Source: Abditibacteriota bacterium | GTDB lineage: Bacteria > Armatimonadota > UBA5829 | Direction: 5' to 3' | Length of the DNA: 39,142 bases | Assembly: GCA_017445025.1 (NCBI GenBank) | Contig: JAFSVJ010000120.1 | Coordinates: 1-39,142 of the forward strand | Translations under genes and position numbers: made by a program | Shown here: positions 20,133 through 31,907 of the stretch, one piece after another | How the letters are laid out: each line of letters opens with the position of its first letter | How positions within the stretch are numbered: the stretch's first letter is position 1 | The notes under the pieces: model-generated | The model's database searches: none | What the model saw: only the letters and a program-made list of their open reading frames with translations | Told to the model about the DNA's origin: nothing

Positions 20133-20231
20133 ATTAATGTAAGATAAAAATTCGTTGTTGGACCAATTGTGGAGTAAAAAACAATGTTTTTTTTTGTTAT
20201 TACAAAAAACAAAATTAGGAGGATCATTAAG

Positions 20232-20978
20232 ATGATCAAAATGAAAAAAGGTTTCACCTTAATAGAATTGTTGGTAGTGATTGCTATCATTGCCATTCTT
20301 GCTGCAATTCTATTCCCCGTATTTGCCCAAGCAAGAGATAAGGCAAGACAATCAGCATGTTTGTCAAATGTAAAGCAAATTGCTATAGCACTTCAACTTT
20401 ATGCTGATGACTATGACGAGACATTCCCGGTCACATTGGATCAGGATTGTGTGGCTGATTGGAAAGATGCAACATATGGAACAAATCCCGGTTGGGGAAA
20501 TATGACCAATCTTAATGAACACAGCATTAAGATTTTATTACAACCTTATATGAAAAATATTGAAATTTTCTGTTGTCCCAATGCAACAAGAATCAGACAA
20601 TATGATGCAGATTATGGATTTGGTTCTTATTTGTGGAATGGTGGAGTTATGGGTTATAAGTTTGGAACACCGACTTTGGCAGCACTTAATAATCCTTCCT
20701 CAATAGCTTTAACAATGGAAAGATCCTATGCTGATCAATGGAACAGAATGTTGCCTTTCTATCATCCTAATGGTCACTGGTGGGCTAACGTTGGAGACAT
20801 CGGTGGTGTTCATGCAGGTAAAAGCCTTTGTAATTTAGCATATGCTGACGGACACGCAAAAGGAGTTAAATATGATATGTTAGAAACAAAGGACTTTGGC
20901 TTTTATGTGACTGCTACCGGCGAATCAAGAAGGTTCAAAGATAATTATCAATGTTATGACTGCACCTTTAAAGGATAA
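20232..20978 (+). CDS. Prepilin-like protein, DUF1559 / H-X9-DG class (prepilin 1)
   Basis: The 248-residue type IV pilin/pseudopilin-like protein has a short basic leader, cleavage before Phe in [15 protein letters not shown], a conserved Glu at +5, a long hydrophobic helix, then [21 protein letters not shown] follows, and near the end a H..11..DGHAK variant of the H-X9-DG signature (AYADGHAKG). Processing needs a prepilin peptidase that is not in the window. I chose ATG 20232 with AGGAGG at 20218-20223; an earlier in-frame ATG at 20184 has no ribosome site. Its initiation region (aggaggatcattaa, then atgatcaaa) is nearly identical to that of prepilin 2. It precedes a large secreted enzyme gene. 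Confidence 0.93.
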
Positions 20979-29867: not shown

Positions 29868-29930
29868 AATTTCCCCCTAATTTCCCGCGGAAATTGGGGG
29901 GATGTCAGTCCAAAAGGACTGACAGGGGGG
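29868..29930 (+). repeat. HR2 double-hairpin repeat, copy 1
   Basis: First hairpin: CCCCCTAATTTCC-cgc-GGAAATTGGGGG (29873-29900). Second: GTCAGTCC-aaaa-GGACTGAC (29904-29923), then a G run. The layout matches copies 2 and 3, with different stem sequences. Confidence 0.85.
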
Positions 29931-29953
29931 CCTCTCACCTACAGTTGATAGAC
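29919..29953 (+). repeat. 35-bp direct repeat, left copy
   Basis: CTGACAGGGGGGCCTCTC, then ACCTACAGTTGATAGACT. A near-identical copy lies at 30243-30277; together they flank the large HR2 inverted repeat. Confidence 0.88.
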
Positions 29954-29974
29954 TTTATAATTCCGGACCCGCTA

Positions 29975-30038
29975 AATGTGTCCCCCTATTTTCGTAAGAA
30001 AAATGGGGGGTGTCAAGCCGAAGGCTTGACGGGGGGGA
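29975..30038 (+). repeat. HR2 double-hairpin repeat, copy 2 (left arm of a large inverted repeat)
   Basis: AATGTGT, then CCCCCTATTTTC-gtaa-GAAAAATGGGGG (29982-30009), then GTCAAGCC-gaa-GGCTTGAC (30012-30030), then seven G. It pairs with copy 3 across about 125 bp. Confidence 0.87.
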
Positions 30039-30162
30039 ATAAAAAAATCGAAGATTTTTTTGTGATGATTTGAAAAATCATCACTAATTGATTTGTTTTA
30101 TGAATAGCAATTTGAAAAAATCGAAGATTTTTTCTCAAAATTTGCATGCAAATTTTGATGAT

Positions 30163-30226
30163 TTCCCCCCGTCAGTCCTACGGACTGCCACCCCCCATTT
30201 TGCGTTGCAAAATAGGGGGACACATT
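30163..30226 (-). repeat. HR2 double-hairpin repeat, copy 3 (right arm)
   Basis: It is inverted relative to copy 2: CCCCCC, GTCAGTCC-tac-GGACTGCC, CCCCCCATTTTGC-gtt-GCAAAATAGGGGG (30191-30219), ACACATT. Stems differ from copy 2 by paired changes. Confidence 0.87.
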
Positions 30227-30242
30227 CACCGGTACATAAAAA

Positions 30243-30277
30243 CTGACAGGGGGCCTCTCACCTACAGTTGATAGACT
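30243..30277 (+). repeat. 35-bp direct repeat, right copy
   Basis: Same as 29919-29953 apart from one G in the G run. The repeat-to-repeat distance is about 324 bp. Confidence 0.88.
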
Positions 30278-30310
30278 CCATAGCTGCGGGAAACGGTAGT
30301 GTGGAAGGGC

Positions 30311-31055: not shown

Positions 31056-31907
31056 ATGATCAAAAAAGGTTTTACCTTAATCGAGTTATTGGTTGTTATA
31101 GCAATCATTGCTATTTTGGCAGCCATACTCTTCCCTGTATTTGCACAGGCAAGAGAAAAAGCAAGACAAGCAAGTTGTTTGTCATGTATGAAGCAGATCG
31201 GAACAGGTCTTCAACTCTATGTTGACGACTATGACGAAACATTCCCCGGTATCGCAGCTTGGGGTATTCCGTCAACCACAGGTATTATTGGATACATGCA
31301 ATCCAATGTATACTGTAACCCTGTGACCACCCTTTACCCTTACATTAAGAACTCAAACATGTTCTGTTGTCCTTCTGCTCCAAGCAGAAAAGAGTTGTTA
31401 ACTGTTTGGAATTATCCTACCGGTATTGATGGCGCAAATCAGAATAACGGAACTAGTCCCGGAATGGGTTCTTCCTATGTATTTAACGGAGTTGCTTACA
31501 ACTTTACCTCTATGGCAGAAATCGGTAGCACAGCTGACCTTATTTTCTGTTGTGAGCACAACACAGTTCGTTCTTGGACAAGTGCCGGAGTATACCCTTC
31601 AACCACAAACATTATGCCTTCACCAAATTACACAGGTTCTGCTTATGAAGGCGGAAGAGCAAGCACATTTATTAACTGTGGTATTTTACCAAAGTGGAAC
31701 GGTCAAGCTCCCCACAATGGTGGACAAAATGTCACCTTTGCCGATGGTCACGCCAAATACATGAAAACAGGTTCCATCACATGGAGAAACCTTGGAGTTG
31801 TTCCTAACAGTGGCGAATCAGCTGACACTCCTGTTCCTCACAGTGATGATGATATGGCTAACTACAACGCCGGATTTATGTCTGCTCGTGCAGCTCAATT
31901 AAACTAA
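31056..31907 (+). CDS. Prepilin-like protein, DUF1559 / H-X9-DG class (prepilin 2)
   Basis: The 283-residue pseudopilin-like protein has the leader MIKKG, cleavage before Phe, [12 protein letters not shown] with Glu at +5, a hydrophobic helix, [21 protein letters not shown], and an exact H-X9-DG box ([16 protein letters not shown]) near residue 225. AGGAGG precedes ATG. The codons use more C-ending forms (aac, tac, atc) than neighbouring genes, which with the consensus promoter suggests high expression. The product should be membrane-inserted and assembled or displayed at the surface after processing by a peptidase not in the window. It precedes the 1233-residue putative glycosidase, mirroring prepilin 1 and the GH29-like gene. 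Confidence 0.95.

Follow-up and report, generated by a model that had tools for sequence, protein, structure and literature searches.

The spread of small palindromic repeats is generally the work of a transposase. Among the closest described systems is the REPtron, formed by REP, BIME and REPIN sequences together with RAYT (PMC8266576, PMC3116915), in which short, high-copy extragenic palindromes occur in inverted pairs, the hairpins are recognized as single-stranded DNA, and one gene is bracketed by inverted repeat copies. A second is the intrastrand triplex motif (TM_ECO/PIT/boxC), which consists of a pyrimidine arm, a loop, a purine arm, a linker and a second purine run, and which is dispersed, intergenic, free of strand bias and at times found as inverted pairs. 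TM_ECO (CCCTCTCCC-loop-GGGAGAGGG-TTA-GGGTGAGGG) forms a triplex in vitro and is present in more than 260 genomes; Holder et al. (2015) did not find mobility functions near the motif, and there was no sign of a stable triplex at the E. coli motif in vivo (PMC4666352). Among proteins, EDxHD members are homing endonucleases that mobilize their own genes (PMC9403480, PMC3943268). A Caulobacter DUF559 protein has been linked to mismatch repair, so DUF559 need not imply mobility (PMC12907096). Excerpts of the open-access literature do not link DUF559 to triplexes or to palindromic repeats. The repeat analyzed here, HR2, resembles both kinds of repeat in the respects listed: its bracketed gene is a DUF559 open reading frame (ORF) between convergent units, and its hairpins would, by analogy, also be recognized as single-stranded DNA. 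We consider it probable that HR2 serves as the end, or recognition, repeat for a small mobile DNA system with a DUF559 endonuclease as its sole protein.

The window, a stretch of 39,142 nt from an Abditibacteriota bacterium, contains three HR2 copies and the following associated features.

29873..29930, + strand: HR2 copy 1, of a rarer subfamily with the framework ...GGGGGGATGTC..GACAGGGGGG; hairpin 1 at 29873-29901, hairpin 2 at 29903-29924, second G-run to 29930
29926..29966, + strand: 41-nt direct repeat (family D1) left of the MITE-like element, part of the right flank of copy 1
29971..30230, no strand assigned: MITE-like element without a gene, with two HR2 ends
29982..30037, + strand: HR2 copy 2, forming the element's left end; hairpin 1 at 29982-30010 with one base unpaired, hairpin 2 at 30011-30031, then the second G-run
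30042..30060, + strand: AT hairpin AAAAAATC-GAA-GATTTTTT, which matches the DUF559 element just inside its left end
30059..30087, + strand: AT hairpin GTGATGATTT-GAA-AAATCATCAC, inside the MITE-like element
30115..30158, + strand: AT hairpins AAAAAATCGAAGATTTTTT and TCAAAATTTGCATGCAAATTTTGA, which match the DUF559 element just inside its right end
30165..30219, - strand: HR2 copy 3, inverted and forming the element's right end
30249..30289, + strand: 41-nt direct repeat (D1) right of the element, 88% identical to 29926..29966

The three copies are real and lie where a sequence-only reading of this DNA had placed them. As that reading also proposed, copies 2 and 3 are mutually inverted; the arms (29969-30047 and 30154-30232) are 79 nt long and 78% complementary, with AT-rich hairpins in between. 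Its description of the stems as fully paired needs two amendments. Hairpin 1 of copy 2 sets four T against five A and is thus one T short, and copy 3 pairs GTCAGTCC with GGACTGCC with one mismatch, which is the conserved G.A of the family (TGGC/TGAC, on the folding strand) in hairpin 2. The subfamily of copy 1 has a second member on contig C99 (L009:2377). Two pseudopilin-like proteins are encoded in the window (20184-20978 and 31056-31907) with near-identical N-termini; one of the genes lies 0.8 kb to the right of the HR2 cluster.

The source genome is an incomplete bin (2.85 Mb, 122 contigs, 91.6% complete), Armatimonadota-like by the best matches of a conserved window protein, which lie in Armatimonadota, with Chloroflexota and others next. 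Its HR2 framework reads TGTCCCCCTA-stem 1-TGGGGGG-TGGCA-stem 2-TGAC-GGGGGG-ATGGA, and the full shared unit is TGT-CCCCC-TA-stem 1-loop-stem 1'-T-GGGGGG-TGGCA-stem 2-loop-stem 2'-TGAC-GGGGGG-ATGGA. BLAST of the region against its own genome gave 79 matches. The pattern CCCCCTA-N(8-24)-GGGGGGTGGC has at least 102 exact matches there (48 and 54 on the two strands), and the reversed-pattern control has none. The stretches around the matches (306 kb including the window) hold 116 units, a lower bound, since units lie at or close to the ends of some contigs; 98 were fully parsed for stem and loop statistics. The idea of a double hairpin with swapped stems, dispersed across the genome, is borne out by these copies and by their paired stems. 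The sequence-only reading had named few copies, or changes restricted to unpaired bases, as contrary outcomes; the 102 framework matches and the stems that changed as pairs are clearly neither. The framework was absent from 40 relatives, two of them congeneric and likewise without DUF559, and exact matches were absent from 84,980 GTDB genomes and from IMG/VR. HR2 is therefore lineage-specific, with a single-genome distribution among the genomes searched. Its units are mostly intergenic (101 of 116 lie outside ORFs of at least 150 aa). Most are not in convergent pairs, and short single forms lacking AT arms are common; these units may spread by a different route. A partial unit (TGTCCCCCTATTTCCTTAAAAATATGGGACCG) resembling a degraded tandem copy lies immediately 5' of a full unit at several loci (L031, L033, L035 and L010). 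Intergenic tandem arrays of 7-bp units are also abundant, the unit differing by array (AATGCAC, TTTCTGC, AAATCAC and AGAAATC; e.g., L064, L095, L102 and L103), and several HR2 copies sit at or within such arrays.

At one locus (L011, C108:43.8-44.7 kb), a single ORF of 186 aa, at C108:43942-44502, lies between two convergent HR2 units. The ORF belongs to DUF559 (Pfam PF04480, E = 2.9e-21, 75.8 bits against a cut-off of 20.6) and was the only DUF559 gene detected by profile search in the 91.6%-complete bin. All 16 invariant residues (E47, D74, E85, H91 and others) in an alignment of ten members (A2) are kept, and a PDB profile search retrieved 3hrl, an endonuclease-like protein, and 3r3p, a "mobile intron protein". 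The protein is a putative Vsr-like nuclease of the PD-(D/E)xK/EDxHD type. It falls by profile in the same nuclease family as the EDxHD homing endonucleases, but its system has no intron or intein; instead, hairpin repeats stand on both sides of the gene and also occur in many gene-less copies. The copy 2 end of the window element aligns with the left end of the DUF559 element (C108:43775-43894) at 85% identity over 119 bp, and the copy 3 end with its right end (C108:44512-44631) at 81% over 116 bp. Since both ends match, the window element is a derivative that has no gene; C99:1932-2157 holds another, truncated one. The inner hairpins match as well. That at 30042..30060 has an altered yet paired stem in the DUF559 element, and the GTGATGATTT/AAATCATCAC hairpin has as its counterpart at L011 GTGATAATTT-GTA-AAATTATCAC, a compensated change. 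Sharing inverted ends with a gene-bearing element is a property of MITEs, although the HR2 element shows no consistent target-site duplication and ends in double hairpins with changing stems. Neither the role of copies 2 and 3 as ends of a mobile element nor the bracketed DUF559 gene elsewhere formed part of the sequence-only reading. Within this genome, the link between HR2 and DUF559 rests on a single locus, which counts against our interpretation.

We searched for DUF559 in the 40 relatives and counted hairpins with GC-rich pyrimidine/purine arms around the genes. Hairpin density fell from 8.64 per kb in the first 100 bp around the DUF559 ORF to 1.36 between 100 and 200 bp, 0.12 between 400 and 800 bp and zero farther out; control loci had 0.068 per kb. 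Hairpins flanked both sides of 13 of 22 DUF559 loci and none of 1600 random boxes, and some loci carried longer inverted repeats, of up to 112 nt. Hairpin-flanked DUF559 loci were found in a Saganbacteria genome (four of four), a cyanobacterium and an Eremiobacterota genome. On plasmids from three phyla (hosts include Azospirillum, Sphingomonas, Sinorhizobium, Methylobacterium, Synechocystis, Pseudanabaena and Deinococcus), 13 of 14 DUF559 genes were hairpin-flanked on at least one side and eight on both. In a Synechocystis sp. B12 plasmid (L269), such a gene lies immediately 5' of BREX-1 pglX. The published TM_ECO type itself occurs flanking DUF559 genes of relatives and beside ycjD of E. coli K-12, which is a DUF559 gene (E = 1.4e-49); TM_ECO number 9 of the 2015 list is 168 bp downstream of ycjD, whose other side has no such motif. 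Of 11 relatives with a clear DUF559 gene, 10 had five or more CCCTCTCC hairpins, versus 5 of 25 without one (Fisher p = 1e-4, uncorrected for relatedness); the five relatives with hairpins but no detected DUF559 require other drivers, gene loss or missed genes. Repeats that bracket DUF559 genes across such distant bacteria suggest an unrecognized nuclease-driven mobile DNA system.

Over 500 bp, two DUF559 elements in the Saganbacteria genome share 92% identity; the similarity stops abruptly at either end, where the repeats lie. Their end hairpins differ by matched changes (TCCGCC-TTC-GGCGGA versus TTCGCC-TCC-GGCGAA), and the linker GTCC-GAA-GGAC of one copy is replaced by another hairpin in the other, with the runs on either side conserved. 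This is the layout and behavior of HR2 in another phylum. In the HR2 genome, comparison of filled and empty host copies places HR2 insertions within the loops of other hairpins. HR2 sits in the loops of CCCGAAAAGTC..GACTTTTTGGG and CCGAAAAATC..ATTTTCCGG hairpins (among L075, L107, L092, L072 and L110); reciprocally, a CCCGAAAAGTC..GACTTTTTGGG hairpin is found within an HR2 second loop. Regular target-site duplications showed no excess over shuffled pairs, with isolated candidates of 12 bp at L066 and 9 bp at L247. Presence and absence of ycjD among E. coli genomes was considered as a sign of movement, but the alternative allele carries a larger block of efflux genes beside fabI and offers no clean empty site, so the locus does not bear on mobility. 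Within the E. coli fabI-sap operon interval (L255), many genomes match the fabI part only, stopping 42 bp before the triplex motif; two E. coli genomes inspected have efflux-pump genes there, and the triplex motif is a rearrangement boundary.

Pairing is perfect in hairpin 1 of 91 and hairpin 2 of 89 of the 98 parsed units (about 90%), even though 16 distinct stem-1 sequences (for example AAGCC, ATTTTTC, AAGC, AAACC, ATTTTGC and ACAATC) and 16 distinct stem-2 sequences (for example AGTTGC, AGTCC, ATCTC and ATTCAC) are represented. When arms were re-paired between units, the mean number of matches was only about 11 for hairpin 1 and 12 for hairpin 2, which indicates that both arms of a stem change together and that the framework is kept. 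Half-changed stems are rare but present (AACC..GCTT and ACGC..GCTT), as expected of intermediates. The main rival to a mobile system is that this pattern is a passive by-product: template switching at replication forks (quasi-palindrome correction) would rewrite the palindromes, slippage and recombination would spread the copies, and DUF559 would lie near hairpins as a repairer or trimmer, or would simply collect with them in unstable intergenic DNA. Such an origin agrees with the lack of regular target-site duplications, with the nesting of HR2 and other elements in one another's loops, and with the other hairpins of this genome, which share the C-GNA-G loop bias and outnumber those of shuffled sequence. 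Blind correction should, however, erase the G.A mismatch of TGGC/TGAC, and the mismatch is retained (TGGC in 87 of 98 units). The framework should likewise drift, and it is conserved, although this conservation is partly ascertainment, later copies having been found by pattern. Convergent ends around one gene and sharp-ended copies of whole DUF559 elements are left unexplained. The mismatch and the bracketing thus argue against passive correction with DUF559 as a repair enzyme, and we regard it as unlikely.

The transposase that usually accompanies small palindromic repeats raises a second alternative, in which the mobilizing enzyme of HR2 is a different one (of the DDE, HUH or tyrosine recombinase type, its gene lying elsewhere or in missing sequence) and DUF559 is a passenger. 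The bin is incomplete, and some contigs end at HR2 units, so room for such a gene exists. A search with PF01797, the one profile used for Y1 (HUH)/RAYT transposases, found none in this genome and was positive in five control genomes, and DUF559 recurs as the partner of analogous repeats across phyla; a separate driver is accordingly improbable, more so than passive correction. The GTAG/CGTC foot is also absent from the aligned copies, whose foot is TGT/CCCCC and GGGGGG/ATGGA. Membership of HR2 in the REP-RAYT family is rejected on the lack of a PF01797 match and of the GTAG foot, and HR2 differs further in its variable stems and in having a DUF559 nuclease as its partner gene. With these differences, the HR2 system would most likely work like a REPtron without the HUH transposase.

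The loops indicate which nucleic acid folds. C-GNA-G triloops form exceptionally stable DNA mini-hairpins. The loop-closing C is present in all 91 parsed hairpins 1 and in 88 of 89 hairpins 2, and GNA or GNNA loops occur in 74 of 91 and 57 of 89, respectively; the opposite-strand form (TNC/TNNC) did not occur among parsed hairpins. HR2 has no orientation bias with respect to flanking genes (35 versus 31). C-closed GNA/GNNA loops on one strand, together with the lack of orientation bias, point to a DNA rather than an RNA element: one DNA strand is the folding strand, regardless of transcription. That HR2 is instead an RNA element (a terminator, mRNA stabilizer or small RNA) whose stems covary for RNA folding, a possibility hinted at by the sequence-only reading, would suit the two hairpins with compensated changes in a conserved framework, the RNA-compatible T.G wobble and the intergenic placement, but is very improbable given the absent orientation bias, GNA triloops, tetraloops that often break the GNRA rule (position 3 is a pyrimidine in 16 of 31 GNNA loops of hairpin 1 and in 5 of 18 of hairpin 2), no Rfam match at gathering score in the window, no U-run after the hairpins in aligned copies, and a distribution confined to one genome.

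Beyond its stems, HR2 has a candidate third strand, a feature absent from the sequence-only reading: a C-run with two G-runs. C5 is kept in 95 and G6 in 93 of the 98 units, and all parsed units have the second G-run, features that were partly pre-selected by the search pattern. In layout, C5/G6/G6 with hairpin 2 as linker is that of an intrastrand triplex motif, and HR2 itself may form a triplex by analogy. It departs from the published motif in the composition of its runs, in the long variable stem within hairpin 1, and in having a hairpin as linker instead of 3 nt. A Vsr-type nick site at the T.G wobble of hairpin 1 (CTA context) was considered and rejected, as the triplex hairpins of relatives lack it; the wobble T is itself required by the HR2 search pattern.

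For a system mobilized by the DUF559 nuclease, we propose the following route. When the strand is exposed, C5 would pair with the first G-run, leaving hairpin 2 as the linker, and the second G-run might fold back as the third strand of a triplex. The nuclease would read the folded framework and not the stem sequence, nicking at or near the framework foot, and the nicked unit could then be copied or find a new insertion site, such as the loop of another hairpin. Only the framework and folding would matter, so that stems could drift freely provided that both arms change together; paired change might arise through selection for folding, template-switch repair of imperfect palindromes, or both. 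More tentatively, and with somewhat less confidence than we place in HR2 itself, we suggest a bacteria-wide class in which a lone DUF559 nuclease, with no transposase, spreads repeats that fold as single-stranded hairpins or triplexes.

If such a class exists, it would account for where the widespread boxC/triplex motifs come from, and recognition in HR2 would have moved wholly to shape, hence the free turnover of its stems. The repeated bracketing of this one family, with ycjD beside a motif in E. coli K-12, provides a concrete and testable candidate. HR2 is in this sense a natural experiment: its roughly 100 copies retain the framework and the shape but not the stem sequence, which hints at what the nuclease would need for recognition.
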